A stretch of DNA of 64,000 bases from NCBI GenBank assembly GCA_001600615.1, contig BCKK01000003.1, positions 28,465-92,464 of the forward strand, in the 5' to 3' direction. The notes under the pieces were generated by a model. The model saw only the letters and a list, made by a program, of their open reading frames with translations. It searched no databases and was not told the origin of the DNA. The position numbers were made by a program, and so were the translations under genes. This stretch comes from Dioszegia crocea. Its lineage: Eukaryota > Basidiomycota > Tremellomycetes > Tremellales > Bulleribasidiaceae. This document shows, piece after piece, positions 36,401-61,007 of this stretch; position 1 is the first letter of the stretch, and every line of letters begins with the position of its first letter.

Positions 36401-37553
36401 TCGCGATCCACATTCTCTGCAATGTAGAACAGCGCAAAGTGCATATCCCGCGAATTGCTAGCCTCCATTCCCCTCAATGCGTCTTGCACCACTCGTTCCT
36501 GTGTGAGACTGCGTTTGATATACAGCGAGATCTCATGAAGCGATCGTATTCGCCTTTCGGTAACAATGCGAACTGTATTGTCGAAGTTGGGTATGTACAG
36601 TCCGCAGGTGAGATTATTCGTGTCTCGAATGGGGATTAATGAATAGCTGAAATACGTTTCTGATGGATCAGCTCAGTAGCTATTTGAGGGAGAAAGGTAC
36701 CTTCTAGCTTCGAACCGCGCAAGAGGAACATCTCTTGACAATCGACATTAAGCACCCTGCCCTGATAACCATCCCGAATCACAGGCTCCAAAATACCCCA
36801 CACCTCCGGCCATGCTTCTCCGTACTTCATACCCAGTATAGTAGGGTGCTTGGTTCCGATGACCTTACTGTACGGCTCGTTGTACAGTAAGACATATTCC
36901 GGACCGTAGCTGATCAGGACGGGGAAAGGTGAAGCCATCATGATTTGAACGAGGCCGCGCAGCTGTGTAGACCAGGTGTCTATAGGACCGAGGGGGGAAG
37001 AAGCCCATTGGCGTGATAGGAAAAGAGCGTTATGATCGAGGGCGGGAGTAGGATAGGCAGTGAGATCAAGCCCGGATGTGGAAGGGAATGGCTGGGGTTG
37101 GGTCGGGGTTGGTAAAAGTAGCGAAGATGGAGATTCCGAGGGGTACTTTAAAAGTTTGGGTTTCGGATTAGGGGGTGGGATGGGTGTTGTGATAGCTGTC
37201 CCTTCGACGACGAGGACAGCGCCGTGTGACAGTGTTCGAGTAGTCCACTTCCAGTGGGGAGACAAGCCGCAAGGCTCTATCGGATCTGATATCTCTCGTT
37301 GCGGCGTTTTCTCGGACGCTCCCGTGCACCCTCCCGGCTGTCGACTGCAAGACCAGGATCCGGCATGTAGCAGAGCATGTTTTTTATCGCTTGGCGAGAA
37401 GGCATCGTTGTGGAATATGATGCTTGGCGAGTTGGTACAGGTGGATTCATCGTCATGCTGCTCGCGACAAACAGACAGGACGACGACGGGATAGGGGAGC
37501 GGGGCGATGTACTCGCACAGGAGAGCTACTCCTGCATCCCCGGCCTCGATCAT
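33471..37553 (-). CDS. Hybrid histidine kinase with PAS/GAF sensor region and receiver domain
   Basis: A large multi-exon gene of roughly 1,100 residues. The N-terminal part (MIEAGDAGVALLCEYIAPLP ... SIIFHNDAF) and the later PFPVLISYGPEYVLLYNEPY are PAS-like; a GAF-like stretch follows (DMHFALFYIAENVDREAW ... GVMLLGLNTRSPWDSEY), then a PAS ending in ATGGPVFDDNGELVMLSGEY. The HisKA domain has the phosphorylated His in SHELRNPLSAI; the ATPase has LLTNAIKF (N box), FEISDTGVGM (G1) and YGGSGLGLFICRRI. The receiver reads HVLLVEDNEISQKLL, with Asp in LILMDIEMPRKGG split by an intron, and Lys in VVSKPFQM. Such kinases feed stress signals to the HOG-type phosphorelay through Ypd1. The sensing ligand is unknown. 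The start could lie further upstream. Confidence 0.9.
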
Positions 37554-37834
37554 CGGAAGACAGCGGCGGGGCTGATGAGGAAGCGGAAGGCTGCTTTGTG
37601 TGGCAGAGATTGGGCAGAGAGACGAGGAACAACAAAACTGATCGACAGACAGTCAATGCCGTAAAGGAGCCTCAGGCCCAGGCCTCCATATAAAAATTAC
37701 CAAATCAATGTCTTCCAAGCCTGCCAGGTGCCTTGCTACAGAGGCCAAGTGCAATTAATCTCATGCCTGCAGCAACATGGGACACTATGTCCTCGAGATC
37801 CATGGCCCTCTCGGACACATGTACCAGCCATGCA

Positions 37835-39137
37835 TCATCCGGCAATATTCTCCGCCACCGCTTTCCCGTCCAGACCGACAACTCCTTCGGCCCGCCGTCC
37901 GTGTACATCGCCCTCCGAACCCGAGCCTTCCTTACCAAACATCGCCGCAAGCGCATCCAGAGTAGTATTCCCGCCTGAGAATATCACTCCGACATCCCAC
38001 ACTTCGCCCTCCTTTTGCTTCTCCGCCACCATCCGCCTAAACTCCTCATTATACAGAATCACCGCTAGCGGTACCACCGCACTCGGCTCCACAAACACCT
38101 TCATCCGCTCCATCACCAACCTCAGCGCCTTCTTGATCTGTTCCTCCGTAGCGCTGTAGACACTTTCGATGAATTTGGGTTTCACCGAGTTGCCGCCGGT
38201 AAGGATGGACCAAGGGATTTTGCCGACCGGAGTGCGAAGACCGTCCGCAATGGTCAAAGTCTTGACCGTTTCGATCCGTTTGGGAGGATTTGACTTGAGT
38301 CCTATCTCTCCGTCGTTTCCGCCTTGATAGCTGGGTTCCGTACCGAAAACGAGGGTAGACGGTTTATCGGAGAACCATGTGGCCGTACCGCTAAGCAGGC
38401 CGCCTCCTCCAAGTGGTGTCAAGACCATATCCAGTCCCTTCGCCTTTCCGTCTGCCAGATCCTTGTATTGCCCCTCCATTTCCATTCCCGCCGTGCCCTG
38501 ACCTAGTATGATATCGGGATGATCATATGGGGGAACAAAGATTGCCCCAGTTTCGGCAATGACTTCCGAGACCATTGCTTCCCGCTCTTGGCTGGTCGAG
38601 CCACTGAACTTGACATTTGGAGTGTAGATCTGGGTTCCAGCAATCTTGGAAGGGGTAGAGATGGTAGGCATGACGATGTGGGCCGGAATTTGAAAAGTCG
38701 ACCCGGCTAGGGCGAGAGCTTGGGCGTGATTTCCTGAAGTTTCAGCATGCTTTGTGGAAGATCTCAATTTCCCTATTCTGGCGTTGTTAAAGTTCACGAA
38801 GACGAGCCACCCCTCTTAGATTCAGCTTATACTTACCTGAAGAGTGTGTGACTATGCCCCGCCGCTGAACTTCCTCCAAACCCAGCTCATCGATAAGCCT
38901 CAAGACAGCATGAAATGCTCCTCTGGCTTTGAAAGCCCCGATTCGCTGGGTGTTTTCGCATTTGAAGAAAATCCGAAGCCGCGGAGCTGCTTCGCCAGGA
39001 TACAGCGGAGCACATGCTAAGGTGTTGATGGTGCGATTGGAGATGAGTGGGGTGAGATGAATGTGAGAGGCGATCTTTGCGTGAGCGGCTTCGACCGACG
39101 ATGGGGTCAGGGGTGGACATGATGTTATCTCGGCCAT
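37835..39137 (-). CDS. PLP-dependent serine/threonine dehydratase or serine racemase family enzyme
   Basis: Two exons give about 420 residues. The PLP lysine lies in FFKCENTQRIGAFKARGAFH, the substrate loop in THSSGNHAQALALAG (split by the intron), and the phosphate-binding glycine loop in LTPLGGGGLLSGTA. DEDG-type cofactor contacts continue to VFSGGNTTLDALAAMFG. There is no C-terminal ACT domain, so this is not the biosynthetic threonine deaminase; it fits serine racemase, L-threo-3-hydroxyaspartate ammonia-lyase (Sry1) or a catabolic threonine/serine dehydratase. The tail after MFGKEGSGSEGDVHGRR is slightly longer than usual. It is a cytosolic enzyme in amino-acid breakdown or detoxification. 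Confidence 0.88.
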
Positions 39138-40975: not shown

Positions 40976-42928
40976 ATGGGGGAAATAACTTCAGCAGCAC
41001 AAGTAAGCTCAGTCGTCTCATCAGCCGCAACAACCCCCCTCGCTTTCCTTGGCTGACGTTATCAGCTATCTTCTCATCCCGCTCGACCTCCAATCTCCAT
41101 CCTATCCCTCCCTTTCGAGCTCCTATCCCAGATAGCCAAACTCCTCATCCGCTACGATGCCATCTCCTTCGCTCTGACCTCACGGAAATTCCTCGCTCCC
41201 TCGGAACCCCACATTCTGCATCATCTTGACCTATGCGGCTCCATACATTTTGGCGAACGACCATGGGTTCAGCCCTTTGTGGAGAATGACGGCGAGGAGT
41301 ATTGGGAATGGTCCAGGGGTGAAGCCAAAGTGATTGGATGCTGGAGGATGAGAGAATTGGCGCACAAGGTCAAAAGGGTGCTGCTGAGGACAAGCGAAGT
41401 CCAGCTTCAAATGGTCCAGCGAATGACGGTTCCCGCAAGGTCTGGGCGGAATCACGGACCACTGCAACTGCTGGAGATGACATCGGATCATCTGCGCTCG
41501 ATCGATATCGAAGCCAACGACTGGAGTTGGTCATTGGGCTGTGAAACCATCGACAACAGCGCGATGCCCCTGGTTACCTCATTTCGCCTTGGCGGGTTGA
41601 AATTCCCAGTTCTCACGCATCTCCGCTTAGGCGCGTACGCCATCAACTCTCCAACCCTCTTTCTCGTCATATGTGACGCCCGCCCCAACCTCATCATTCT
41701 GGAGAGTGGAGTCACAATCTATATCGATACTCCCATCGAAACCACTCTCGACAAATACTTGTCACAACCCACCAAGATCCGTCACATGCGTATTCCCTTC
41801 TGCAGGCTTGAGGGCCGTGCGGATGATGATGCTCAGTATAATGCCGTCGCACCCCTCCGCACCCTCCTCGACGCTAGTCCCGCTTTGACGCAACTCTCGG
41901 TGACTTACTTTGACCAAGTCCAGTCACTTCTCGCCGCATTCCCTGAGTTCCTAGCCCGGCACTCAAATCTCCGGGACCTACACATCAGCCTCGGGGCGAA
42001 GGAGCTTGACAAGTGGACTAGCGAGAAGGGCCCAATCACCTGCGTGAGGAGGTTAGTACTTGAGGCGTACCACTGGAGCGACGTGGTGAGTCTCTTCTTA
42101 TCCCCTTCCCTACTATTGCGATCTCAGTTGACGGGAAGTCCTACCTGCCCTCTCGACTACCCAATCTGGAGCTTCTGTGCTACCTGCGCCCCATTCCTGA
42201 CCCCAAGGACTACACGGTTCATCCCAGCTTCCGGCCAGCAATTCCCTGCTCGGCCTATTCCATGCTCCCCACTCTCGCCAGTCAACTCCGTCTTACCCCT
42301 CACTTGCGGTATATGCAACTCCTCGATTATCACTTCGACCGGTATATCGACTTCAAATTCTCCACATTTGATGGGCTGAGTGACACCGCATCAGCGGGTA
42401 CATCTACGGGTCGGATCCGGTCGTTCTGCCGGGACGAGGGCGAATTGCTCCATGCGAGCTTTTGGATGGAGTATCTGGAGATATCGGACGAGGCGGGCGT
42501 AGATGGGGTTTCGGACGATGAGGTCTTTGATCACTGGGACATGCCTGTGATTCGGTATGATGCCAGGGACGGTACATCTCGTCTGAAGACCTACGTCCGA
42601 CTCCCCAAACCTGTCTTGACGGAGTATACAGATTTTGAGGGGATGATGGTGCCGATGGAGATTATCGAGCGGATGAGGGTGGTAGAGGGTGTTACGGAGG
42701 CGGAATGGCAAGGGAGGGGAATGGAGGTTGGAGCGGAGGCATGGAAGGTTCTCATGGATTGGAAAGAGCAGGCGGATGTCGATGGGAGTAAAGTGGGAGC
42801 TGAGTCGACATATTGGTCTGGTCAAGATCACCGTGAGTCACCCTTTCATCCACTTCTTCATCCGCTTTGATGTCCTTTTGGATCTCAGAGCTGACTTGTC
42901 AGGATTCAGCATTGGCATACCCTCCTAA
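40976..42928 (+). CDS. F-box protein with LRR-like body, family member 1
   Basis: Four exons give about 590 residues. After a short first exon (MGEITSAAQ) the F-box reads ISILSLPFELLSQIAKLLIR-YDAISFALTSRKF. The body contains repeats with leucine spacing (LKFPVLTHLRLGAYAINSP, PLRTLLDASPALTQLSV, HSNLRDLHISLG). The C-terminal family motif is YTDFEGMMVPMEIIERMRVV-EGVTEAEWQGRGMEVGAEAW-KVLMDW, shared with the other F-box genes here. Intron 2 ends in an unusual acceptor (TTGACGGGAAG) that alone keeps the frame. F-box proteins dock on Skp1 and bring targets to the SCF ubiquitin ligase; the target is unknown. Confidence 0.8.
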
Positions 42929-43797
42929 TTCCTATATCGCTTGTGTACATGCCTGATCGTGTGTTTGAAACTCCGGCGTAGTGTTGAGAGGGGTAGCGGG
43001 CGGATAGGATGGCAGTGGGGAATCATTCCCAAGGGGTAGCAGGTGGATGACGACATTAGAGGAGTAGCAGGTGGACAATGAGGCGATTGGGGAATCACAA
43101 CAGCTGGGAGGAAATGTCATTGTGAGTTTACCGCCAATGTGGCCTTACGCTCAATCTACTCATCAAGGCCAAGGACTGATAATACAGATCATACAGTACA
43201 GCAACCCGCTCAACACTCATCTCACACCATCAACCTATACATCTCATTCCGGGCGTTCTCAAATCTGGTCATCCGAAATATCCAGCACTGCAATCACTAC
43301 GGGTCGACTCGGAACTTTCCTCTTCCGCAATCAGGGTGCTTGAAGCTTGACGGATGAGGACGGGGAGTAAGGATAGCATTAGTTGGTTTTGAATCTTGGT
43401 GGATGTATGTACCGTTGAGCTTTTGGGTGTCATCCATGCAGATCTCGAGAGGATGCAGATTTGCCGCCTGGGTCCTGCTGAATCGAGTCCAGTAGAGAGT
43501 CAGTACTTTCGAGATTTGGTCTATTCATCCAGTCCAGCACAATTGTAAGGAGATGCATGGTGAATTCTAAGTCATACTGCTGAAACCGAGCAAAGACGTT
43601 GGTATGGGTGCGGTCGAGGTCCAGATCTAGTCGAGGAGGAAAGTCGAGGTCGGAAGCGAGCGGTATGATACATGTGTCGAGCGAGAGTACAAGTCGTTAT
43701 GAGGCGAAAGCGGTAGAGCATAGTGAAGAGGGGCAGGTGGTACATCTACATCTTCAGCAATAGTCAGCGAACATTCCCAAGCGCAGAGAGACCAAAC
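42929..43797. other. Convergent intergenic region with a short repeat
   Basis: No gene is supported between the 3' ends of F-box genes 1 and 2. Three copies of a 13-mer (GGTAGCGGGCGGA at 42992, GGTAGCAGGTGGA at 43034, AGTAGCAGGTGGA at 43062) and the small palindrome GGGGAATCATTCCC (43017-43030) are visible. Confidence 0.45.
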
Positions 43798-45548
43798 TCA
43801 CCATTCACCCAAACCCTTAATCTCATCAAACCAATCCATCAACACCTGCCAAGCCTCATCCCCAACTTCAATCCCTCTCCCTTTCCAATGTTCCACGCTG
43901 ACACCCTCTACCACCCGCATCCGCTCCAGAATTTCCAGCGGCACCACCTTCCCATCATAGTCTGTATGATCCACAAAGACCGCCGAAAGTTGGTAGAGTA
44001 AATGCGCATGTAGCACTTCTTCTTCGCCATGTCGGAACGAGCTGATGGTGCCGTTCGGAGTAGGTGACGCTTCGATCTTGTCGAGTTGATCGAATATGCC
44101 CAGACCGGATTCGAGAGTTGTGGGGTCGAGGATGTGGAGGAGGCGGAGCTGGGGATTGGTGCGGAGGGTCGAAGCGAGATCGGAGGACATGGTCGATTCG
44201 GATGGTGGGCTTTCGGAGGATTCATGGGTAAGACCAGAAAAGTAGACGACTTCGAGTGCTGGAAATGGAACGTCAAGTATGAACTACATAGAGTCAGCTT
44301 ATCTAACATATGACTTGCAGAAAGTATCACGGGCGCAGTGGTCACTCACGCTACTGCACGTCCCGAGTCCGATCACCAAGCGCCGCAGGGTTGGGAAGGC
44401 AGATGGGTAGCCTAAGACTTCGACACAATCCTCAGTCTCAATCCCCCGCCAGTCCAAGTCACTTAGATGCTGGAGCCCGCCGATCTTGGTAAATAGCTCC
44501 TCGACCGCCATTTCCCGCCCTGCTGCCGCCTCGTCCATGTTAGGATAGTCACCATCGTCAAGCTCCTGAGGATGTTCCGAGTCCTCCCGCCGGCATTGAT
44601 CATTGTAGCGAGAAATTTCATTTTCAATCGCAAAGGGATAATCGATCGAGAGTTGCCGAAGGTTCGGGAAGAATTCGCAGTATTCTCTCATGAGATCGAT
44701 ATTGGCGCCATCGTCGTAATCGTCTGCACGGCAACTGATGTGGAGGTTTTGGATGCCGGAGATGCCCTGAGAGAGGGGATAGTCCGGGGCGGGATCATGA
44801 GAAGATATGGACTTCCGTCGGCAGTATCCGGTAAGGTCGAGGATGAGGGTTTCGAGAGCTGGAGCGAGGTCGCAGAGGTACCGTACAAATCCGCGGAAAT
44901 GCGGCGCAAATTTACCGATCGAGAGCACCGTAAGTGCTGGAAATGTCAAGCCTGCGTCAAGCAGCTTGACATCAAGCGTCTCGCTACTGGGAGATCGCCA
45001 GTGAGATTCGAGGGGGTGTGGCTCTGGAGCCTCGATAGTCAAATGCTCGAGATTGGCAGAAGCGCGTTCGAGGATCTGGACCAGGGAATCACCCGAGGTC
45101 GGTCGAGTTGTGAGTTCGATAGATCGAATCATAGCGTACCGCCTATCGTTTGCCCGGAAGGTGATGGCTCGGATCTTAGCGTTGAGCTTCTGCCGAAAGG
45201 TATTTTCGGCACGCTTAGCTTCAGCAAGCGCAGCAGCTATGGCTCGTTTGGACTTTCCGGGATTGGCCGTGGGGTGATGGTCGCTCACCGCCATTCGGAG
45301 GGTGTGCCAGAGTATAGGCTCGGCACCGGAGTTGAATCGAGGGGATACGCGGGTAAGCGCGAGTGCGGTGGGTTGGTCGCAGTGGATGATCATGAGGTCG
45401 AGGAGTTCGTCGGGGAGGGTCAGGAGGGAAGTGCGTTGGCTCATCCTCTAGATATCAGCTATACCTCCTGACTGGACGTGTGGTGATGTAGAGGGTCGAG
45501 AGGAAAGCGGGGTGATTGGCTTACTGAAGGGGTTTGGCTGGAAGCCAT
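43798..45548 (-). CDS. F-box protein, family member 2
   Basis: Exon 1 encodes MASSQTPS and ends at GTAAGCC; exon 2 continues RMSQRTSLLTLPDELLDLMI-IHCDQPTALALTRVSPRF, an F-box. The body (about residues 60-390) has LRR-like rows such as LTFPALTVLSIGKFAPHF, IQNLHIS, FFPNLRQLSIDY and FPTLRRLVIGLG. The last exon carries the family motif HTDYDGKVVPLEILERMRVV-EGVSVEHWKGRGIEVGDEAW-QVLMDW and ends GLGEW-TGA; a GTGAGT overlapping that stop could instead splice to a short further exon. It shares a 318-bp divergent promoter with BTB gene 1. It is a likely SCF substrate adaptor. Confidence 0.8.
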
Positions 45549-45866
45549 TTCGCGAAAGCCTCGGGCTGTCTGCCGGGGTAAGCTGAGCACAGCTTGTGGT
45601 ATCTGATCCGGCTGATCTGTAGGTGCTGAGGGAGCTCGTCTATCTGCTCTGAAGGTCAGATAGTGAGCGTGGTAAACAAGAAAGAGGTGAGGAATGTGGA
45701 GTCGGAACACGGTGCGCGCGATGGCTTGGGCATGCTCCGGAAATTGAATATCCGGCCCGGAATGTCCCCATGTACTGTAAAAAGCTCAATCCGGATTCGG
45801 CAACAACACCTCCTACAGTATATCCTACATACTCCGCATAGCTAGCTACCTCCAACGTCAGTCAGC
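45549..45866. promoter_or_regulatory. Shared divergent promoter of F-box 2 and BTB 1 with CCGG motifs
   Basis: The 318 bp between the two start codons contain AATATCCGGC at 45747-45756, flanked by CTCCGGAAATT (45735) and CCCGGAATGTCC (45757), with CAATCCGGATTCGG further on (45789). The same AATATCCGGC decamer is found before BTB 2. The arrangement suggests joint control of a F-box and a BTB adaptor; this is an inference. Confidence 0.45.
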
Positions 45867-46928
45867 ATGTCGGGCAACCTCGCTTCCAGCATGCCGACTT
45901 CTTCCAGTTCCACTTCCTCTCTCGGTGGACTCTCAGGCGTTGTCAAACAAGAGCCGGGCGTTCAAGCGCCCCTCACCCCTCCTCCAACTGCGGATGCTCC
46001 TGGCCTGCCGGCCGCATCTGCTACTGCTATTGCCACGCCCAAGCGTAGTCTTGATGTAGAGGCCGAAGAACAGCCTGAGATCGATGCGCCAGAGGTGAAG
46101 AGGGCGAGAACGGATGCGGCAGAACCTGCAGAGATCCAGCCGCCCAAGGTCTCGCCACTGTTCTGCGACCCCGAGGCGAACTTTGAGATCATCTCGAAGG
46201 GTGGTGTGGTACACCGGATACAGCTCTATCATCTTTTGGCAAATAGGTGGGTTCTTTATGCCTGAAGGTGAAGCAGAAGCTGACATCTATAGCCCCGTCT
46301 TTCAATTTCTAGAAAAACACGCCCGATTCGCCTCGCCTTTCCGTCAGCCCGACGAATTGCCGGCCACAATTGACGACGTGCTGTGCCTCATGACTCGGAA
46401 GGACATCGATTGGAATCTGACCACTTCGGCCTTCGTCATTCGGATAATGAGGATTGCCAAACTTTGCAAGCGATGGAAATGCGAATTCCTGCTTGAGCGC
46501 ATCTCGACAATGGTCCGCGCTGCGCTTGAAGTTGAGGGGAATGCGCAAATCCTTCTTTTTTGCGCTACAATCGCTTTGAATGACCCAGCGATGAGCAGAA
46601 AGGCATTGCCTTTGACTGCCGGTCGGATCTGGGTCCAAACGGCCATTCCACCTGGAGATACCTCGATCGAGGCGGCGGAGGTGGGGCAGAGCTGTCTCGA
46701 CGTGGCGGCAATGCCGTTGTGGCTTTACGAACTCATTCCTTATCGACATCGGATCGCGCTGGGCCGGGCGTATAGATTGCGAGGAGATGGCAAAAGGGGA
46801 GGTGATGGGGACTGGGAGAAAGTTGCGGAAGAGTACCACAGGCTGATTACCGAGATTCCTGTAAGTCTGAGTGCTATCGAAGTCTAGCAGTGGCTGATTA
46901 GTGCTAGGTTTCAGTGCCAAAGCCATAG
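45867..46928 (+). CDS. BTB/POZ-domain protein, paralogue 1
   Basis: Three exons give about 320 residues. The first about 90 residues are low-complexity (S, T, P, A) with KRSLDVEAEEQPEIDAPEVK-RARTD, a possible nuclear signal. The BTB domain begins PLFCDPEANFEIISKGGVVH-RIQLYHLLANSPVFQFLEKH, followed by ATIDDVLCLMTRKDIDW and the helical region IRIMRIAKLCKRWKCEFLLE. The C-terminal part has MPLWLYELIPYRHRIALGRA and DWEKVAEEYHRLI. BTB proteins dimerise and often bridge CUL3 ubiquitin ligases to substrates; no MATH, Kelch or zinc-finger partner domain is seen here. Confidence 0.75.
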
Positions 46929-47184
46929 TAGAGCATATATGGTCCACATGTTCCCATTCCTTTGGTCCCAGTATACTCGTCGCGCTACTTTGCCCTCCAT
47001 CTCGGATTCCTCGACCTTATCCTCATCAGTCCTGCGCTTCAATTTTTTGTCGTTATCTACATGTCCGTCCCTTTTCATCACCTAGACGTGCTGCTCCTTG
47101 GGAAGAGCGAAGGTGGAAGAATCAAGTTTAAAGGGGTAACGAGGAATGAGGAGTCGGAAAGGGGTTGGCAGGGTGAAACATATC

Positions 47185-47212
47185 CCGGATATCCAATATC
47201 CGGCATATTCCG
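47185..47212. promoter_or_regulatory. Inverted CCGGATAT-cca-ATATCCGG element before BTB 2
   Basis: CCGGATATCCAATATCCGG (about 47185-47203) has perfect 8-base arms and a 3-base spacer, followed by CATATTCCGG. AATATCCGGC at 47195-47204 matches the decamer in the BTB 1 promoter. It lies 88 bp before the ATG. Confidence 0.5.
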
Positions 47213-47291
47213 GTGTAAACCTACACCAAGCGGCTTCACGATACCAATCATCCATCTCACACCATCTATCCACATATAGATCTATCTCAAC

Positions 47292-48564
47292 ATGTCAGAA
47301 ACTCCAGCCGGCAGCACCTCCCTCCCCGCCAAGACCCCCACCAACGTTTCGGCTAAACCGAAAACTCCAGCTGGCAGACCCGTCCCCGCTCAACCTTTTC
47401 CATTGCCTCGCGTTGACCCTGTTTCCGCTCTTCCCCTCGCCCTCGACTCCAGACCCGTACTTCCTCTCCCTCGCGATACTCATCCAAACGTCTCGGCCTT
47501 CGCCTTCCCTGCCATCCCAGCCGGTCCAGCCGGAAATACGGCATCTCGTCAGCCACTGCCCAACGCGCTCGAAGCTGGGCCTTCTACCGCTAGTGCTGGA
47601 CCGAAGCGGAAGTCCGAGATGGTCAGTGACGCGATAGATGATGGAGCCTCGGAGCCTAAGCGGGTGAAGGTGGAAGGAGAGTCGCGTGAGGGTGTGGAGG
47701 TGAAGGCAAAGGCAAAGGCAAAGGCAAAGGCAAAGGCAAAGGAGAGGGTTTCGGTCTTGTTCAATGATCCCAAGGCAGATTTTGTGATTGTGTCAGAGGA
47801 TGGCATTAGCCATAGGGTCGAGACGTATGATCTACTCGCCAACAGGTGAGTCTTTCTTTCTGGTAGTGAAGGACCCGGAGGCAAGCTGCGCGGAAGGGAT
47901 ACAGGCTGTTCTTAGCTGATGCCTGCAGTACCTACTTCAGAAACTTGCGCAAAGCCGACACACTCGTCTCTCCTCTTCACCTCTCCCTTTCATCCCACAC
48001 ACTCGAAGACGTCCTATCACTCATGTTGCGCCGACCTCCAAGCTGGATCATATTCAACCAATGGTCAATTCTTCGAATAACGCGCCAGGTCAATCTCTGC
48101 CGGCAATGGGACTGCACTCATCTGCTTGATCGCGTCTCGGAATGGATACTTCGACACGTGAAGGAGAATGGTCAGCTCATCGGCGATGTCTTCTTCTGCG
48201 CGGTCGCCCTGGGCAACTTGGAGTTGTGCCGGCGGTACCTGCCAGCAGCCGCCAAATGCTGTTGGCCCACATCTGCCCGTCCTCAGCCGGAACTGGGTCT
48301 CCATGAAGCAGAACGCGGGTGGAGCAAGCTGGATATCGGAGCGATGCCGTCGTGGCTTCTCGATCTCATACCAACGGCGCACAAGACGGCGTTGCTCCGA
48401 GCATTCCGTCTAAGGGGGAGTGATGGTCCGGGCCCGGCAGGAGATTGGGAGAAGGTGGCGGATGAGTATTTCAGGCTGATCTCCAAGGTAAGTCTTCCAT
48501 GATGGCTTTGTTCATTGAAGTAAGGGGTTATGCTGACTCGAAACAGCCAATCAAAGCGGAGTAG
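47292..48564 (+). CDS. BTB/POZ-domain protein, paralogue 2, with a (KA)n run
   Basis: Three exons give about 380 residues, parallel to BTB 1 in exon borders (both first introns split an AG|Y codon after LLANR/S). The N-terminal 135 residues are P/A/T-rich with GPKRKSEM and ASEPKRVKVEG basic blocks. An AAGGCA hexamer repeat (about 47703-47740) encodes a KA run. The BTB region reads VLFNDPKADFVIVSEDGISH-RVETYDLLAN, then FRNLRKADTLVSPLHLS and TLEDVLSLMLRRPPSWI. The end matches paralogue 1: MPSWLLDLIPTAHKTALLRA and DWEKVADEYFRLIS. A tandem duplicate in the same orientation; likely a CUL3-type adaptor. Confidence 0.75.
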
Positions 48565-50043
48565 GCCCAATATCCTATTTCTCCATAACTCGACGTGAGT
48601 CAGATTCTGCTTTTTAGACCATTTGACAGATCTGACCAATGTAGGCCAAAGATCACTTGTGTACATCAATCCGGATATGTCATATACCACTTCGATCCTC
48701 TCCAACGCCGATATCGCTCAATTCATCCCAATTCCCCTACACACCATGGCCCATTTACCCCCGTGCTCGCCACACTATGTCTACACAACCGCTTTCCCAT
48801 CTCGGAATTGACCCAATTCGACTACACTACCTTCGCCCACCACCTTACCACTCCGTCTGATACTGGCGTACGTCATGGTTAGAGCTTGATCAAATACATG
48901 GGTCGGTCATGGCTATTCTGGAGAATCAAGTCTGCTCATCTCCACTGACGAGACTGTCTGAGTACTGATATCATTTGATACTGACTTGGCGAGCTTCACA
49001 GTCATCTATGAGTTGGCTTAGCCCTCTCATCGTCAATATTGCTCTTACATGAGAAGGGAGAACGGTAAGCACGTCTGAGCAGCTTATGACCCAAGGGTCC
49101 CAATCTCCATGACGCTACTGAATCAGCTGAGCTACGATGTCCACACTATCTCATTCCCTAGGCCTTCTTCCTTGGATACAGCGCCTTCCAAATGTCAGGA
49201 GCCGATCTGTCAAGAAGGGAACAAAGTCAGGCGGCTGCAGCTATGGTAGAGAGTGAGATTTGGGAGCATGGCGAAGGCGAACTCGTCCACTGAAGATGAA
49301 GGAATCGTGACCAGGAAGTATCCGGCTCTGCCGAGTTGTTCTCTACAAATTGACTGCTGTCATCATCAAAACCATCCACTCCATATCCTCCTGATCTCAC
49401 TCATCTTGGAGCTGGTAAGCTGACCAGTGACGGTGGGACTCAAGCTTCTCCTGCGATCTCGAGTTATAGATTCCCGACTGATCAGTGCTTGGCATTACTA
49501 ATGGGTTAAGTCCATGCTGAAAAAGTGACTCGCCCTATCTTCACAGCCTCAACTGGAATCCCTTACCAACTCTGACCCAAGATGACCGTGTTCTTCTCCA
49601 GCCTCTAATAGAATCCTCGATATATGAGAAGGAGACTGACATCTCATTGGGCGCACGTACTGGCTACCCAACATCGGGAATCAAGTACTCGAGTATAGCG
49701 AGCGCGCTGAGGCACAGAGCTGGGATCAAGCTCCATATACATCGTCAGGTGTGGTACAGCAGTTTGAGGAATGAAGTTGGCGTCGTGCAGTGTAAGATCC
49801 AGGTCGATTCGGGCAAAAGCTCTCGATAAACACCGAGTTGGGCTGTCCGAAGTCCGGCCTCATATGGCCATATGCTCCTCTCTTGAGTGTTTGACTCTAA
49901 GGACGAGGCAGTTTGTAGACGGTGTGCGATGTAGATTAGATCAGCAAGAGAGGCAGTAGAGAAGAACAGAGGGGAAGTTGTCTCGATCTATACTTGAGCT
50001 TGATGATGGGCGTGTGTTTGGCGAAAGGTAGAGGCGGGAGAAC
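48565..50043. other. Gene-poor stretch
   Basis: About 1.5 kb after BTB 2 in which no frame with family motifs or consistent intron signals was found on either strand. Confidence 0.4.
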
Positions 50044-50397
50044 TCAAGAGTGCACGGATGGCCAGGGTGTAATCTGAGCTGTTACTGATGTGCGTGAGAG
50101 GTAAGTTGAGACTGTGACAAGTTCTGTGTGAGTGAACAATCCAAACAAGTTCCTGCGTCGCTTGAGCGATCGTCGAATGTGAGCAAGATGAAGGTCTCTA
50201 CCATGAGTAGCCAAATTAAGGTCGTCTGGACTGCTTCTCCCCTCTTCTGTCAAACCCGCCATCTGGGCACATGAGGATATCAGCATGGGATAATTTGGTG
50301 GAGTAAGAGGGGAAGGACTCTGCAGACTTCTGGATCCCATAGTGCATTGGTGAAGCGAGGGAAGAAGATCGCAAAATTCACATTTTCGAGATTTCAA
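50044..50397 (-). CDS. Doubtful single-exon ORF, 117 codons
   Basis: MKSRKCEFCDLLPSLHQCTM runs to PWPSVHS and a stop. The start has a CxxC with nearby H and C, and the middle is basic (HIRRSLKRRRNLFG). No introns and no known family; it may be chance. Included only because nothing else occupies the region. Confidence 0.2.
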   Translation of the reverse strand: MKSRKCEFCDLLPSLHQCTMGSRSLQSPSPLTPPNYPMLISSCAQMAGLTEEGRSSPDDLNLATHGRDLHLAHIRRSLKRRRNLFGLFTHTELVTVSTYLSRTSVTAQITPWPSVHS

Positions 50398-51737
50398 GGT
50401 CAGCCCCTTAAATAGCCCACCATCCCCCGCACGAGCCTTGAGAACTCGACCTTACAGCTGACCAAACCTCACCCTTCAACCTGTCATGCATCCCTTTATC
50501 CAACTGTACACCAAGCCCGACCCAAATCAAGATCTCCCGATATCAGCTTTACCCTCAGCTTTACCCCTTCTCGAAGCCTCCATCCATCATACCATCATCA
50601 CTTTCTATACTTGACGATCTGGTGCTGTCCAGTATGGCGAGTAGATAGCATCCGAGAATTGAAGAGTGAAGTGTGTAGACTGTATACATTGAACATGAAG
50701 CAAACTACGTACTATACAACCTATCATCCTCAACCCTTAGATCATATCCTCCAACCCTGCTCTATTCACCTCCATACCCTCCTTGACACCGCAGCATGAC
50801 ATTCCCTCTTCGTCCCGTAAAATCTTCACCTGGCCAGCCCATACCCCAACCCATCCATCGTAGAGCATCACCTCCCATATCCCCATGTCCCCTACCGCCC
50901 TCATCCTCCTGCGCTAGCCACTCACGCCAAACCACCCTTATCCTCCGATCCCAACCTTTCCGTCCTGTACCCGCCAGACCTGGACCGCCTTCGAAGCCGT
51001 GAACGCCTTGGATCGACCGGGCCTGAGTGAAGGTTGAGCGAAGGAGGAGTTGAGTAGGACGGATGAGGGAGTAGAAGGGATGAGAGTCGAAAGAAAGGCC
51101 AGTGTAGAGTGGCGAGGGGATGGTAGGAGAGGAAACGAGCTGAGTTGAGGGATGTAGGGTGGAAATGTGATGGTTGGACGGGATAAGGTATAGGGAGATC
51201 GAGTGTGAAGGGCATGTTGGATGAGATGGATATCTGGCATGAGTGGATAAAGCTAATAGCGGTGCACGGGGATGAAGAGATTGTGGTGAAGAGGCGAAGT
51301 GGTCAAGAACGGAGGACAGCGCGGAGGGAAGGAGGGAAGGATGGGGAGGCAGGGATGAAAATGGTTACACCCTTAAAGCTGGTGACCGCAGAGGTAGGAA
51401 GACCAGATGAACGGAATGGAGCAGGGATAGTTGGAGGTAAGGGCAGTCTGGATGGATGGTGCTGGAATGCAGGCAGAGAGAAAGGGAGGTAGAGCTGGAA
51501 CAGAGACGGGATTGACGCCGGAGAAAAGGAAACGCAGAGCTGAGATGAAAATTTTGCATGGTCAAGACTAGATACAATACAACTCTGAATATAATCAGCT
51601 TGTGCCCAATGGAGTGTTTACACAGGCAAGGCGACCAAAGGAATAGAAAGAAGTGTCAGAGGTTTAATTTAGGTAGCGTGGTTTTTTCAGCAGCGACGAA
51701 AAGTCCTCAAGCCAAATGCACTCAGGTCATCATTGTG

Positions 51738-51870
51738 TGGGAAGGGTGGGAGGGGAAAGTGTAGAGGAAGGGAAGAGAGAGAGGAGGGGAAGAGAGAGAG
51801 TGTGTGAAGAGATGGGAAGAAGTACGAGAGGGGAGGAGGAGAAAGAGAGGGACAAGAAGGGATGAAAGGA
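51738..51870 (+). repeat. Polypurine tract (GGGA/GAGA-rich)
   Basis: About 130 bp are almost all G and A on the plus strand (GGGAAGGGTGGGAGGGGAAAG, then GGAAGGGAAGAGAGAGAGGA), with only scattered T and C. Such homopurine runs can form triplex DNA and are often unstable. Confidence 0.6.
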
Positions 51871-52428
51871 TATGGATGCAAAACTCTCCCTTTCCCTCAC
51901 TAGCCCACGTCCAGTCTGATAGCCCTGAAGGAATGCATGCTCACCTAGCTAAATCTATCTGTTGCTTAGACGTCGATCAGAAAGCCCGCTCGAGCCCACG
52001 GCCAGACCTCACCTCGCCCGAAAGCTCAGCTCCGTCTTACCGCCAGCGTCCTCGATGCTGAGCCCTTTGCAAGGCATCAACAGTTACCTCTGTAAGAGAG
52101 CCGAGCGGGTACTTTATCATCGCCTCGACGTGGAATTTATGACTAGTGTGGACTAGCATAAGAGAACAGTGACTATACAGAAATCCTGTAGGGTTAGCGG
52201 GGCTCTGTAGGGTGGGTAGGGGGAGGATGGGAAGTGAAGGATGATAGTAGATGACTTGCCTGCAGAGTATGATACGATGAAGAAATTGAAATATCCCCAG
52301 CCAGCCTTATATATGCACTGAGAATTGGCTCGCGGCGTTTCGGGATTACGCAAATCTTCACTTGTGGCACATTCCCGTGCGTCACCTAACCAAGCGGAAT
52401 GTTCTGGTGTGGCGGCATCTCCCGCCTG

Positions 52429-52525
52429 GACAGAGTCCGGGTTTCTCTCAGTCCGGGCTGTTTCACACCTCGGATATCCGGATGTTTTAGCAAGTCCGGG
52501 CTGTGGTCCGGTTTCAGACCTCAGC
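52429..52525 (+). repeat. Short repeats AGTCCGGGCTGT / TTTCACACCTCGG
   Basis: CAGTCCGGGCTGTTTCACACC recurs as aagtccgggctgtggtccgg followed by tttcagacctcag about 40 bp later; a third AGTCCGGG starts at about 52435. The palindrome CGGATATCCG sits at 52471-52480. The block lies about 220 bp before F-box 3. Confidence 0.5.
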
Positions 52526-52746
52526 CAGCTTCAATTATCGACCGTACCATCCATGTCTCCTTGCTTCGACTTGAGAAATAGCTACTTGTCGCTGGCAGAG
52601 GACAGCGGTAGAAGTCCCCTCTTTAACGGCTAACACCTCTGACCGTAACTGATAGGCGCGATCGGTGAGTCCGCTCGGATCAAGCTGCAAAGGCAACCCA
52701 TCACGCAGTAGAAGCTGATGGGCACAGGCCCATATCGTCTACCACA

Positions 52747-53523
52747 ATGCAATCTCCATCGACCAGTCCCCAGGGGCTAATTATCAAACATGATAATTGG
52801 GCATTTCCAGTGAGTAATCCTCGCGACCTACGCTGAGTTTAGGGCACCACCGATAACATTCTCCCCCTTCGCACAGACCTTCACTCCGTCCGCTTTGACT
52901 GTACATCCCGGACGTCTTACCCTACCTTCATAACCCGATCAGACGATGCTCGGGCGATCAACCGCGGCTTAGCCAAATGGCTCACCACCAACTCCACCCT
53001 AACATTCCTCTCTTTCGTCTCCCACCCCGATGATGCTCTCAATGTCGAAACATCAGACAACACAGGCTCTATCCTCTCGCTCCGGCATGGCGACGGCGAG
53101 TTGCTGTACATGATACTCCCACTACAGGATGTCGACGTGTCGGACGGTAGCGGAGGTATCACCCGAAAGACCGTCATATTCTCGCAGGGCGATACTGTCC
53201 TCAGCTCGCACGTCGTCAAGGTGTACCCGCCTGTCCTCGAAATCTATACCAAAGCGTATGGATGCGTCATCCCTTTGGATGTGCTGGAGGATATATTGGC
53301 GACAGAGGGATTGAGCATGGAGGAGTGGAGTCTTAAGGGGAGAGGTGTGATTGTGGGCGAAGAAGCATGGGCGGTGTTGATGGAGTGGGTGAATGAGGAA
53401 CGGCGGTGGGGTGAGACGGACGAACCTCAGTCGCATGCAGAGCTCGAGAGGTTATGGGCGGATGTGCCGGAGGAGGATTATGGGGAGTATTACGGCGAAG
53501 AGGAATTTGGGGATGGGGATTGA
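52747..53523 (+). CDS. N-terminally truncated F-box-family paralogue, 247 residues
   Basis: A short first exon (MQSPSTSPQGLIIKHDNWAF-P) joins across a 33-nt intron (52810-52842) to GTTDNILPLRTDLHSVRFD, KWLTTNSTLTFLSFVSHP, SILSLRHGDGELLYMIL and the family's C-terminal motif YTKAYGCVIPLDVLEDILAT-EGLSMEEWSLKGRG, then GEEAWAVLMEW. An acidic tail ends EEEFGDGD. The F-box and most of the LRR-like body of the paralogues are absent, and no F-box was found upstream. It may be a decayed copy or a shortened protein that lacks Skp1 binding. Confidence 0.65.
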
Positions 53524-53689
53524 GGCGGAGGTTTAAGGGGAGAAGGGTCTTATGGGGTTAGTATGGTTGTATATTTGAGATTTGAGCCATAGCGAGATAG
53601 GCACACAGTAGGCTATGTATACACTCACTTCATCTACTCTACGATGTTTTTACAGGCGAGCCTTGACCAAGACTCGTCCAGTCTAGACA

Positions 53690-54480
53690 TGGCTCGATTT
53701 GACAGTAAGAAAGCCCAGAACAGCGACCCCAAAGGGAAGCTCTGCTGGGCAATGTGAACAGAACATCTGTCGATGAGGATAGTGACGATCAAGGCAACGG
53801 ATCGCCGATGATGAGTAGAAGCCACACCGCAGGCACATGACCCCATCACCATACCCCGCTAGTCAAGGTCGTAAAACGAGTACCCAACCTTCCGCGGAAT
53901 ATAGCCATCAAAGTAGTTTAACGTCGGTGACCCACGACAGACGGGGGTTATTATACTCCAACCAGGAGTGACCCGTTTCGCCCCTTAGTTCAGGGGAGCG
54001 TGATGCCTGACCCGTCGATAGTATCGACCCCACCCCCTCGGTAGTTCCCTGCGAGCGTATGGTGACACAGGGCCGGAAGATGTTGGTGATACCACCCGCC
54101 AGACATCGTTTAAAGTCGTTGCAGTAGACGATCATCGCCTGTTTGATTCCCGGCGCAGGAAGTAGGCCTATGCTGATATGCTTGGTTCAAATGTAGCTGC
54201 TTAGTTTAACGACCCTGGCCTTGGGTTGTCGGACGAGGATTTGGGTGGACCGCCGTATCCTCCGTGTCGTGTGTGTCGCACATAGTGCAGGTACTGCTGA
54301 TGATGTTGTTGGAGAGTGTAGGTATTGTTGATGATCATGAAGAGATAAGCATAGAGGAGAGAGGATAAGAGACGAATGAGAGATATGAGGTGGCGAGGGA
54401 AGAGTCGATCGAACCGAGTATTGCCTGCTGCGGCAACTCCGGACCCCGCTGACATGCCGTAATGAGGAATGTGGATTTGC
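53690..54480 (-). repeat. Dispersed repeat, copy B (inverted relative to copy A)
   Basis: Reverse complement partner of 9100-9800 with the same block order, including GACAACCCAAGGCCAGGGTC, ATCAAACAGGCGATGATCG, GTCTGGCGGGTGGTATCACC, the sequence from CACGCTCCCCTGAACTAAGG to GGGTCACTCCTGGTTGGAGT, and GCGATCCGTTGCCTTGATCG. It lies in the F-box block, 44 kb from copy A. Confidence 0.6.
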
Positions 54481-54757
54481 CACTCGACGCGCTCAGCGAA
54501 GACACTGCCGGTATCCAGCACGATGAGAGCTTGGACTGCTGCTTGGGTTTCAGACCATGAAAGGAGAGCGCCTAACTAGCTCGCGTACAACGCCAAGAGG
54601 ACTCGCATGGGAAATAAGGGTTATATCATGGTACTCGGCTATCAAACATGACCCCCCAATACCCCATCTTCCGAAATACAATCCGGCATCTGATCGCCTG
54701 ATCTCCCCCCATTGTAGATATAAAGAGATACCGGTATATATCTCGACACTAAAGATG

Positions 54758-56825
54758 TCAGGGTGGGGAAGATGATGCATGATTGAAGAGAAGATAGCGG
54801 TCGACCAGGGGGAGTTGGAGTGGTCTGAGAAATCAGCTGAATTCACGCCATGACCCCCCAGGCAACCGATTCGCATTCAACTCACCTGAAATCATTCTCA
54901 CAAAGCAGCCATACCACCCCCGAAAGGTTCCTTAGCTCCACCCTCGCTCCTTCCGGAATCTCCACCTCTCCAATCTGCTTCCCTAATTCCCAATCCGCCC
55001 CGCTGATATCCTCGCACACCCTTAATACGCGCCTTGATCGATTGTCATGTATGGCAATTGTTGAGAATGAAAGATCTGGTAAGTCAGTCATACCATAGCA
55101 AATCACAAGCCAAATAAGATAGCGGCAACTCACATTTGCCTCATCCAGAATCCTCTCCCAGTCAGCCAACACCGCCCACGTCGCACGCCCCACTGATATC
55201 CCCCTGCCCTTCCAATCCGCCTTGCTGATCCCCTCCAGCACCCTCATTTCCTCCAAAACCTCCATCGGAATGACTCGTCTTCTGAAATCCGTCATATTGA
55301 CCCAGCCCGGGTGTGTATCGACAGCAGCACGAACAAAAAGGAGTTCTTCTCCGGCGTGCCGGACCGAGGAGATGGAGTAGTCGGTAATACCGGACGCTTC
55401 GATCTCGTCAAGGTGATCAAATACGAGCAGGCCGTCATCTTTGTTTCCGATGTGAGGTGGTAATTGATGGATGGTATGGAGGAGGGGATTACCGCGTAGT
55501 TTCGCCGCGAAATCTTGGTGGATGCCAATCGCTGACCCAGAACTGGCCAAGTCGATGTGTGACAGGAAAGGTCGGAGGGAGACACGGACAAGGGGGCCCC
55601 GTGGGTGGTGAAAGTATAGACAATGTAGCTGAGGAAGCTCTGGCAAGCAGCCATACTAAACTTTGAGCGGATCACCAGCAAGTGGGACGAAGCAAGTTGA
55701 GGAGGGGAAGGTATGTACTCACGGGCCAAAAATAGCTAAGTGGCCCCAACACCATCCGCTGTACATGCTGGAATCCATTTCCTCCCGCTCTCTCCAGCAC
55801 TCGCAAGAGGTTGTGCGGCAAGACATTCCAGCTTAGCTCCTCCAGCAGACCCAGCGCAGCAAGTTCCACAAAGGCGCTTTGCGCGTGCGCGGACACCAAT
55901 TTATCCCGAGGGAGGCCGTCCAAAGCAATTCGGCGCACTTCGGGATAGTCAGCGAACCGGGCAGGGTAGAAAATGTTGTAATTATTCCGTACAGATTCGA
56001 GCTGCCATCTACCGCCGAATCGGCTGCGGAATGAGGTATGAAGGTGAAGATTTCGTACATTCATCAGAGGCCGGGGAGGCGCGATCGACAAAGAGTCGAA
56101 AGGGTACATTGACCATTCGGGGCTAAGGCGCCATTGACTTCGATCAATCTGGAGGGTTTCGAGGTTGGGTGCGAGACGCGAAAGGAAGGAAAGAATGGTG
56201 GGAAATGTAATCCCATAACCCTCCAGATTGAGTTGTCTCAAATTCGGGAGGATCAGATTCCCTTGATCGATGTGATTTTCGAGGCTATTGATAGTCCAAT
56301 CATGAGGGGAGATGACCAGGTCGGTCCTTTGGATAGTCAAAGACCGTAAGACATGGGAGGAGCGAGCGAGAACATCGACGATCCTGGCGGCGGAATCAGA
56401 GCATGTGGGGATAGTAGCAGATCTGACGAATGCAGAGCGCGTAGAGTTCGCCTGTCGAATGATGGATGTCAGATAGTTGTCGAATTTTCGGTCTACCAAC
56501 CTCTCCGCGTGGGGGTATGTTCTGGTAATACTTTGCCCGCGCCGGGTCGGAAGATAGAAGTGGGAGGTCTCGCCAGATGACGATATCGGCGAATGACCTG
56601 AACCGATGGCTGACTAGCGCGAGGGCTAAAGCGGTAGGTTTATCGATGTAGTGCGTGAAGATGTGGATGAGGATGTCGTCGGGGAGTGAGGGGAGGGCAG
56701 GGGTGGTGCTGGTGGGCTGGAGAGTTAGCTAGATATCACCCAAGATGGAGAAGGCGAGATCAGGGTCGAAGTGGAGGGGGAAAGTTGGATGATTGGCTTA
56801 CTGAAGGGGTCTGAGCGGGGATCAT
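54758..56825 (-). CDS. F-box protein, family member 4, with a frameshift and uncertain 3' end
   Basis: Exon 1 is MIPAQTPS followed by GTAAGCC, as in member 2. Exon 2 gives LPSLPDDILIHIFTHYIDKP-TALALALVSHRF, an F-box. Near a run of five C's (56511-56515) the frame shifts, after which VDRKFDNYLTSIIRQANSTR and LRR-like rows (LILPNLRQLNLEGYGI, LEELSWNVLPHNLLRVLE) follow. The C-terminal motif MTDFRRRVIPMEVLEEMRVL-EGISKADWKGRGISVG ends LADWERILDEAN. There, splicing a GTGAGT intron gives a stop at 55022, whereas reading through gives about 100 more residues (IGEVEIPEGARVELRNLSGV...) and, after another intron, a stop at 54758. The copy may be a pseudogene. Confidence 0.6.
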
Positions 56826-57048
56826 TCTGGATTCGGTATCGGCCAGAATACAGCTCAAGTACACTAGGGTCTATTGGATCTTATCAGCATGAGATCCAGC
56901 GGTCGAAGACAAGACTTACCGGTTCACTGCGCAATGGTATGGATGAAGATCACTGCAAAGCTGAGGTTTGGGATTTGAGTTTGGTCGACGGTGAGTTCTC
57001 GGTAGAATTTCGACAAGGGGTCCTTTGGGTCAATAACTCGGCTAGGCG

Positions 57049-57534
57049 CTATCTGATCTGGACAAGGAACTCACTGGACGGTCTATATGTGCGCATAGTC
57101 TTTACAGCAATACACTTGACATCTCTAGCTGGCGAACCCAGCGCCGAACTCCGAATCATCATTCTAGGCATGTGACGCCTCGCTGGCTCTAGAGCGCCGT
57201 GGTTGTCCGTGGGTGTACATCTGATATAGTTTTTAGCCCTAGAAGACGTCAGCGATTGCAATCTCATCCCGGATATACTGACAACTCACTTTGTCTTCGC
57301 AGTCCACTCCTCTCCAGTCCCATCCGAGTACCGGCAATTTGCAACCACCGGCGCCTCCAGCCAACACATAAGATCTGTCCCCCTTGACTTGACCGCCTCA
57401 ACTCTTGTAGTCCTACAAGTAAGTTATGTGAGAGGATGATCAGTACAGAGGGTCATAGATATCGACTATACATGGCATGATCCAGTCTACTCAGAACCCA
57501 GCCCGCCAGTAGGGATGATATCGTTTTCGCCCAT
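57049..57534 (-). CDS. Small orphan protein, about 117 residues, three exons
   Basis: MGENDIIPTGGLGSE joins (donor GTAGAC, weak) to TTRVEAVKSRGTDLMCWLEA-PVVANCRYSDGTGEEW, then across GTGAGT ... GCTGACGTCTTCTAG to AKNYIRCTPTDNHGALEPAR ... SSEFLVQIR and TAG at 57049. The second intron is canonical and keeps the frame. It contains three Cys and a basic middle; no family is recognised. It lies between F-box genes 4 and 5. Confidence 0.4.
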
Positions 57535-57747
57535 CGTGATTTATCGGAGCTTTCGGAGCTGATTGGCGATACCCGGTCGGTGATACTTATAGACAGCACG
57601 AGAGGTGAAGCCGAAGAGGTTGATGAAGCGCTATGAGACAATACACATGATTGGCGCTGGTCGAGAATGGTGAGACTGAGAGTCAGCCACGATGCAAATT
57701 TCCAGTCGAAGTAGGAGATTAAATTAATACTCACATCTGTCCGGTCC

Positions 57748-59373
57748 CTACTGAGCCTCATACCAGCTCGTCAATATGGCCCATGTCTCACTCCCCACTG
57801 ATATCCCCCTACCCTTCCAATCTTTCCTCTTAATCCCTTCCATCACCCTCATCTCCTCGATAATCGACCACGGCACTGACCTCCCCTTGCAATCCGCCAT
57901 ACTGGTATGAATAGTTCTGGGGTCGAGTTTTACTTCAGCAAAGAGCAATTCGTCCTTGTCACGCCGGACCGAGCTGAAAATTGCCGCGGCGGATCTCAAG
58001 GAGCTGATATTGTCAAGTTTCTCGAAGATGTCGAGATCGCCAGATTGGGTATCGAACGGGAGCTGAATGAGTTTATGGAGGTTGGGACTGCCACGAAGGC
58101 TCGTGGCGAGCGCAGGAGGCATGGGTTGGGGAGAAAGATCATGTACGAAGGGCCCGCCATAAGCACCTGAAGTGGAGTAGGCGATGACCTCCAAGTTGGG
58201 CAGGCTGGGAAGGTCCCGTATCTAAGCACAAATCAGCTAAAGGCACCCGGAGGCAAGGACTCTACCAGACTTACAGCTGAGGCGGTGGTCATGGGACCTA
58301 GAACCAATCGACGGAGATTCGGAATCTCGAATCCCTCCCACTGGAGACAAGCTGTGATGTCCGATGCGTCGAAATGCCACGCTAGCTCCTCTAGCAGCTT
58401 CAGATTTACGTGGATGTTGATGAGCACAGCTGCCATCGCGTCATGCCGATCATCGATGAAAGCGTCGGTGAGTTGATCATATGTGTCGAAGTTACACATT
58501 ACCGAGAGGCGCCGAAGGTTAGGTAGGTCGACGAAGTGGCAGCTGACCGATTGGCAGGCTGCCATTTCCTCTCCGCGCGTCACTGCATGAGAGATTCGAG
58601 CAGTGCGAATGGTCAAGTGGGGTTCTGGGAGGGAACCGTACTCCGGCATGAGATCTTCATCTTCATCTTTGTTGGCCATGTCGTCTGGATGCGCGACGAT
58701 ATCGATATCAAGGATTTCGAGGTTCGGAGCGCAGTGCGCAAGATGAGGAATGAAGTGATTGAATCGGTACGCGTACCGCCCAATGGTGAGTCTGCGGAGT
58801 GCTGGGAAGGTGAGGTCTGCGTGGAAGATCATGTTATCGAGTGTGAGCTCGGTCGGTGGACGCCAGTGCGACTGGCAAGGGTGAGGGGCAGGCGCGAGTA
58901 TGGATAGCGAGACTAAGGTCGGGAAGACCAAGTCGAAGACATCCACTAGTTCATCTAGTACGAGCTCACGGGGGACCATCGTGAGAGCTCGCACCATGGC
59001 CACGCGCCTAGGATTCGCCTGCCGGAGGATGGATTCGATCTTCGCCAGTAGATCATCCGCGATATCCTCTTCGTCTTCCTGCGCAGTGGCGATTGCAGAC
59101 GGACAGAGAGGATCGATCGAAGAGACCGAGGGTGGATGATCAGGCACGACCAGGTGGAGACGGGACCAGCGATGTGAGTCGGCAATGGGGACGAAGCGCA
59201 GAGCGACGAGGGAGAGATTGAGTGCGGTGGAATAGTCGGATAGGGACATGATGTGGTGGATAATTTCATCAGGGAGGGAGAGTAGATTGACGCGAGGACC
59301 GAGAGCCTGCTTGTCAGCTGGGTTAGACGCGTAGGAGAAGTGAGCTTACGGGTGATGGTTGGATTGATGCCAT
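57748..59373 (-). CDS. F-box protein, family member 5
   Basis: Three exons give about 500 residues. MASIQPSP (exon 1) is followed by NLLSLPDEIIHHIMSLSDYS-TALNLSLVALRFV, an F-box. The body reads VFPTLVSLSILAPAPH, LTFPALRRLTIGRYAYRF, CAPNLEILDIDIVA, LPNLRRLSVM and EIPNLRRLVLGPM, regular leucine rows like members 1, 2 and 4. The last exon carries MADCKGRSVPWSIIEEMRVM-EGIKRKDWKGRGISVGSETW-AILTSW and ends YEAQ. It shares the SHWR block (CQSHWRPPTELTLD) with member 2 (LESHWRSPSSETLD). It is the most intact copy in the right half of the block; likely an SCF adaptor. Confidence 0.8.
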
Positions 59374-59780: not shown

Positions 59781-61007
59781 CTACTTGTGGTGCGCCTTGA
59801 TGAACTTGAGGCAGTTTCCGGGGCTGTATAATGAGCTGATGCCCCATTCTCTGCAGAGCCCCAAGTCAAAGGTAATGGCAACTCACTCATCAGCAGGCTT
59901 GACGGAGTACTTCGCTTCGACGAGTTTCCCGCTGCCCTTTTCAAAGATGAAGTGGGATCGCTTGGTGTTTTTGGGCAAGACGAAGGCGCCGAGTCTGCAG
60001 AGGTCAGCTTGCTTGAATGGATCATCCTCATAGGCCTAGAAGCTGAGACATACCGCTTGATCAGGACGGAGTCTGGGTCGCAGAGCAGGCTGTAGTTGAG
60101 CTTTTGCTTGACTTTCCACTGAAGGGTCAGCTCTTGCTGTCTTCGAATTCTTCATGAAGGGAGGATCTAAGAGGAGCAACTGACGTTCTTCTGTGCGGTA
60201 GGCCCGTCTCGGGACAAGCCGTAGACATCGTAGCCCAACTCAGCGATCTCGTCGAACGCGTCCCTAAACCCGCAAGCTTGGTTGGTGCATCCTGGAGTGT
60301 TGGCCTGTGGTGTCAGCATATGATCCTGTATCAGAAGCAGTCATTATTCATTGATTAGACACAGCCGGTAGGGCTCATCACGCTCTCCCTAGACCAAACC
60401 CCCTGCTAACACCCTGAACTCCTCTCCGTCCCATCCCATCGCCTGTCTCAGATGTCCGCAATCTCACATCATCCGCCTTCACGCGTCTCTGCTATCCACA
60501 TCTTCCTCAACTCCCTCTGCTTAGCCTGTTGACTCACCTTGGGATACAAGAAGATAACCACCCCCCTCTCCCCCGCCAAATCCGCAACAGCCACATCCTC
60601 CCCTTCCTCATTCTTCAGCGTAACCTTAGGCAGCTTATCCCCTTCCTTCATCGCCTTCCCGCCATCCGTACTAGGCTCAGCTTCAGGCTCAGCCTCTGCC
60701 TCTTTCTCCTCCTCGGCCGCTTTGGCCTTCTTGGACGTGGCGGACGCCTTGGATTTGGTAGGTTTCGATGCCGGTGCAGCAGGGGTGGGTTTGGCCTTCT
60801 TGCTGGCTGGAGTAGGTTTATCATCTGCTGCAGCGCGCTGAGGGATCAGCATCAACCCAGGCTGGACTGGGACCGATATACCTTCTTGGCCGGCTCTTGA
60901 GGGGCCTCGTCAGCAGTCGTACCTGCCAACCTTCCCGATCGCCTGCTGGGCGGTGGCGGAGCGGCTTTTTCGCCCTTTGCCGATTTAGTCTTGCTTTCAG
61001 CTGCCAT
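59781..61007 (-). CDS. Nuclear peroxiredoxin of the PrxQ/BCP type (Dot5-like)
   Basis: Six exons give about 260 residues. The N-terminal 140 residues are lysine-, alanine- and proline-rich (PPPPSRRSGRLAG, TPASKKAKPTPAAPAS), a likely nuclear-localised tail. The thioredoxin fold follows: GDKLPKVTLKNEEGEDV, GVVIFLYPK, then the peroxidatic Cys in ANTPGCTNQACGFRDAF, which also holds the resolving Cys five residues on, YDVYGLSRDGPTAQ, LCDPDSVLIKRLGA and the end FIKAHHK. The family reduces hydroperoxides with thioredoxin; yeast Dot5 is nuclear and linked to telomeric silencing. It is divergent from REX4 (197 bp). Confidence 0.88.

Follow-up and report, generated by a model that had tools for sequence, protein, structure and literature searches.

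A tandemly duplicated F-box gene family of probable ubiquitin-ligase adaptors in the fungus Dioszegia crocea

We analyzed a 64,000-nucleotide stretch of the Dioszegia crocea genome (contig BCKK01000003.1, positions 28,465 to 92,464 of the forward strand; hereafter the window) and found that an 18.4-kb cluster within it (40976-59373, numbered from the first letter of the window) is one of 18 sites of an old F-box family, which expanded largely by tandem duplication and whose members probably serve as substrate adaptors of SKP1-cullin-F-box (SCF) ubiquitin ligases. Seven gene models were built from the sequence and from the likeness between members, namely the F-box genes F1, F2, F4, and F5, the remnant F3, and the BTB-like genes B1 and B2. 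The cluster ends at the start codons of F1 (40976) and F5 (59373).

Genome-wide distribution and tandem duplication

Searching the available stretches of the 20.6-Mb genome with a profile of the conserved C-terminal tail of these proteins returned 55 hits, four of which were fragments of genes already counted, giving a lower bound of at least 51 tail-bearing loci in 18 clusters, eight of them with a single locus. Searches with F2, F5, F1, and F3, which score the best candidates only, likewise revealed family members at many genomic places. The original prediction had described a local expansion; a tandemly duplicated F-box family is indeed present, but "local" proved too narrow for a family distributed throughout the genome. 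Contig C3, comprising ~10% of the genome, holds 25 of the 51 tail loci, all inside its first ~410 kb, and this region (C3:1-410 kb) may be a special, duplication-prone one.

On a tree of the tails, the nearest relative lay in the same cluster for 23/51 loci, whereas 5000 shuffles averaged 4.56 and never exceeded 14, demonstrating that tandem duplication is real and a major mode of family growth. The expansion is old: pairwise identities among 21 longer sequences (210 pairs) were low, spanning 21.4-50.7% (median, 27%); at this divergence the paralogues are too distant for the ratio of non-synonymous to synonymous substitution (dN/dS). In the longer alignment of these 21 sequences, F2, F4, F5, and four genes at C3:132-142 kb, at a distance of 45-70 kb, fell on one side of a branch with 100/100 support and F1 on the opposite side, with the tree rooted at its midpoint and the term "clade" dependent on that rooting. 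F4 and F5 were sisters (97/91 on the longer alignment, 89/28 on the tail tree). By contrast, in the tail tree, which covers all 51 loci with a short alignment and a bootstrap that has not settled, F2 joined three of the four C3:132-142 kb genes (97/95) and F4 and F5 joined a locus on contig C1 (96/88). Given this partial disagreement, the local clade of F2, F4, and F5 with the C3:132-142 kb genes is likely, although not settled. The nearest relatives of the remnant F3 lie at C3:149-152 and 398-407 kb. Protein-database searches retrieved no homologue at E <= 0.001 with F2 (7997 candidates scored) or with a five-row family alignment (7994 candidates scored).

Gene models and domain architecture

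The family proteins follow a common order, in which a tiny start exon is followed by an F-box, a leucine-rich repeat (LRR)-like solenoid, and a conserved C-terminal domain, here called the tail. Three models carry all of these parts in three exons with open frames: F1 (40976..42870, +; exons 40976-41002, 41066-42085, and 42139-42870), F2 (43798..45548, -; exons 45548-45525, 45447-44350, and 44283-43798), and F5 (57748..59373, -; exons 59373-59350, 59306-58275, and 58221-57748). F4 (54882..56825, -; exon 1, 56825-56802) encodes its F-box in exon 2, followed by a frame change, an LRR-like part, and the tail. The switch from the F-box frame to that of the remaining length lies between 56613 and 56396 (-), where a consensus intron joining the two frames was not found; F4 is possibly a pseudogene, or the change may reflect a very short intron or a sequence error. 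F3 (52843..53523, +) consists of an LRR end and the tail, with no F-box within or upstream of that interval. Accordingly, of the five F-box-family genes originally counted, all possess the predicted shared tail, but only F1, F2, F4, and F5 could be regarded as F-box genes.

When whole proteins were scanned against Pfam, only the first open piece of F4 scored above the F-box cut-off, with 37.1 bits to PF12937. F1, F2, and F5 reached at best 16.5, 14.5, and 19.0 bits, respectively, for an F-box and stayed under it, although the F1 N-terminus cleared it when scanned alone (21.1 vs 20.5 bits). In a set of 18 family N-termini, 15/18 matched F-box-like and 13/18 matched F-box at E <= 0.01. This set comprised four sequences from the window and 14/17 paralogues, omitting C9_401 and C3_403, which contain an in-frame stop, and C6_578, which was not read. 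A profile of the family N-termini also retrieved SKP2 in PDB (1.4e-5). At the family level, the F-box predicted from these profiles is clear.

An LRR-like solenoid following the F-box appears in a structure model of modest confidence, supporting the LRR-like rows of the original prediction, but the rows are diverged and score under Pfam cut-offs. For the tail, with a consensus of about W.D.TDY.G..VP.E.IE.MR.VEG....W..RGVEVG..AW.VL.DW, no match was found among Pfam families or solved structures; its profile gave only weak PDB matches with unrelated names, and the rows from Foldseek and VIA-align were not meaningful. We regard it as a C-terminal domain that these searches assigned to no described family. 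Across the 21 sequences, conservation was higher in the F-box and tail than in the more variable LRR-like middle, as expected for SCF substrate adaptors. In such a model, the F-box would hold Skp1, the variable middle would select substrates, and the tail may cap the solenoid or bind a common partner.

Two other explanations of the cluster were weighed against that of SCF adaptors. Genomic drift, in which an F-box family expands and decays with little function and is kept by a few active members, would account for the remnant F3, the frame change in F4, the in-frame stops in matched stretches of several paralogues (some of which are introns), and the low identity between members. However, drift does not readily explain why the F-box and tail remain more conserved than the middle, or why a 20-nt block, described below, is identical in four genes, and we consider it unlikely. 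More improbable still is a self/non-self, defense, or toxin-antidote module, in which F-box and BTB-like genes would co-evolve under diversifying selection. The variable middle beside a conserved F-box and tail fits this idea, whereas two of the three BTB-like arrays in the genome have no F-box-family member nearby, and no recent duplicates occur among the 21 longer sequences, whose best pair is 50.7% identical.

A 20-nt block spanning the first splice donor

The small start-codon exon ends at a GTAAGCC donor in F2 and F4, as originally noted for these two members, and at GTAAGCT in F1 and F5. In F2 and F4 this donor is part of a longer 20-nt block, CCCCTTCA|GTAAGCCAATCA, with 8 nt lying in exon 1 and 12 nt in intron 1 (45513..45532, - in F2; 56790..56809, - in F4). 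The block is identical in F2, F4, C3_132, and C3_140, the last two located outside the window, and the proteins of these four genes are only 25-35% identical. A splice donor alone accounts for ~9 positions. The 19-mer of the block has exactly four exact sites in 20.6 Mb, all in these genes, with the next best site carrying two mismatches; allowing <=3 mismatches gave 20 sites, whereas the reversed pattern gave 5. Searched by themselves, the 12 intronic nt gave the same four sites, with ~2 expected by chance from base count. Among eight genes of ~2.0-2.2 kb, all words of >=12 nt common to at least three were the block and its edges. Farther from the block, 20-base windows were at background, and in the windows immediately flanking it most pairs matched at 3-11/20 positions. 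The longest shared word in control tandem groups was <=16 nt for C3_398/400/403 and C1_519/523 (with C3_398 and C3_400 compared over 1.1-1.3 kb only) and <=17 nt for a trio on C8.

If read through, the block would encode the same residues in all four genes, and the identity extends to synonymous positions, suggesting that selection would act at the level of DNA or RNA rather than peptide. The block contains AGCCAATCA, which we take to fit the CCAAT-box consensus, and CCCCT, presumably the core of a yeast stress element; both are candidates only. The block is most likely a cis element kept by selection, acting either as a regulatory DNA site that includes a CCAAT box or in the control of splicing. 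We tentatively propose, as a possibility short of an even chance, that this element switches a group of F-box genes jointly and was frozen by selection while the proteins, with their undescribed C-terminal domain, diverged to their present identities. Such joint control could work by regulating whether the first intron is retained, through a CCAAT-type site within the transcript, or with the block as a small-RNA target (~20-23 nt). The absence of the block in F5 and the lack of any site found at C3_134 and C3_138 argue against a general need for it.

Alternatively, the block may be unselected, representing a short gene-conversion tract or what remains of a 5' end that was shared until recently. 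In line with this, F2, F4, and C3_140 also agree, on inspection by eye, in a short word (GATATCTAG) at the acceptor of the first intron; the sequence just upstream of the block matches at 16/20 positions between F2 and C3_140 and at 10/20 between F4 and each of them; and the distribution of the block on the tree is patchy. On the other hand, C3_132 carries the whole block with flanks that match at only 3-9/20 in the adjacent windows, and a conversion tract would need to have covered ~20-23 nt in four genes, centered on the donor. We consider an unselected origin rather doubtful and favor a selected cis element.

Comparison with known F-box families

Large F-box adaptor families are best known from plants and nematodes, in which tandem clusters of F-box genes occur. 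The family described here resembles these in its many copies of F-box adaptors, but differs in its tail, which is not named in the portions of the literature on them covered here. It also resembles the F-box/LRR proteins (FBXL: SKP2, FBXL2, and FBXL17; plant TIR1/COI1) in having an N-terminal F-box by sequence and an LRR-type solenoid by model. Unlike FBXL proteins, its LRR-like rows have diverged under Pfam cut-offs, and it has an extra conserved tail without a Pfam or PDB match. In open-access literature, no report was found of this F-box family, its tail, or the 20-nt block.

Among fungi, one survey lists 19 F-box proteins in Cryptococcus neoformans, of which a single one is of LRR type, and gives Laccaria bicolor the highest F-box count (PMC7991009). 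By this yardstick, the D. crocea family is large, with at least 51 tail loci of one family in 20.6 Mb vs one LRR-type protein in C. neoformans, a comparison across differing methods. With so many loci in a small genome and a conserved tail matched to no known domain, the family is a compact model for studying the causes of expansions of this kind. The 20-nt block, identical in four genes, offers a direct test of whether diverged genes share control through one splice-site element; if true, a fast-diverging adaptor family would be switched through one fixed splice-site word.

BTB-like genes

B1 (45867..46887, +; exons 45867-46246 and 46293-46887) and B2 (47292..48502, +; exons 47292-47845 and 47905-48502) are two-exon genes whose proteins share 39% identity. 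They belong to a family of 13 loci, consisting of these two, five at C1:766-776 kb, and six at C5:928-937 kb. The original prediction called them BTB genes; we call them BTB-like: neither B1 nor B2 has a Pfam BTB match, and 2/7 scanned family members do, one on C5 with 24.8 bits, over the cut-off of 20.5, and one on C1 with 19.9 bits, just under it. It is through the C5 relative, rather than B1 and B2 themselves, that the family resembles BTB/POZ proteins. A profile of the family gave no BTB match in PDB, only weak matches with unrelated names, and a protein search with B1 returned one protein (P0001, source code lgn).

The arrays on C1 and C5 have no tail locus nearby; the nearest on C1 is ~244 kb off, and none was seen on C5. 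A single functional module of F-box and BTB genes, as originally suggested, is therefore unsupported. Because F-box neighbors occur at only 1/3 of the BTB-like arrays, their pairing may be due to chance; B1 and B2 belong to a separate tandem family and may merely happen to lie beside the F-box genes. F2 and B1 are divergent, with start codons 318 bp apart, and possibly share a promoter.

We also observed GAGGAATGNGGAGTCGGAA at 45689-45707 and 47141-47159 (+), 151-178 nt upstream of the B1 and B2 start codons. Genome-wide, it has three exact and 14 one-mismatch sites, and at <=3 mismatches it reaches 194 sites, whereas its reversed pattern reaches 58. No clear common flanking sequence was seen at the 15 sites outside the window. 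It looks like a putative binding site.

Other features of the cluster and its surroundings

The seven models span a total of ~10.1 of 18.4 kb, so that the description of a cluster holding almost nothing else was too strong. Between B2 and F3, a stretch of ~4 kb (48700-52640) yielded no second genomic copy, and its four tested open reading frames (ORFs; 49521-52530), together with a fifth at 54553-54876, had no Pfam match at E <= 0.01. A transposon in this interval was considered and rejected, since the search of 48.7-52.6 kb, in which simple repeats and very common words were skipped, gave no second copy in the genome. The ORFs adjoining the cluster, at 35536-38815 (-) and 60472-60909 (-), appear ordinary, with matches to a pyridoxal phosphate (PLP)-dependent enzyme (139 bits) and, slightly under their cut-offs, to PAS and AhpC/TSA.
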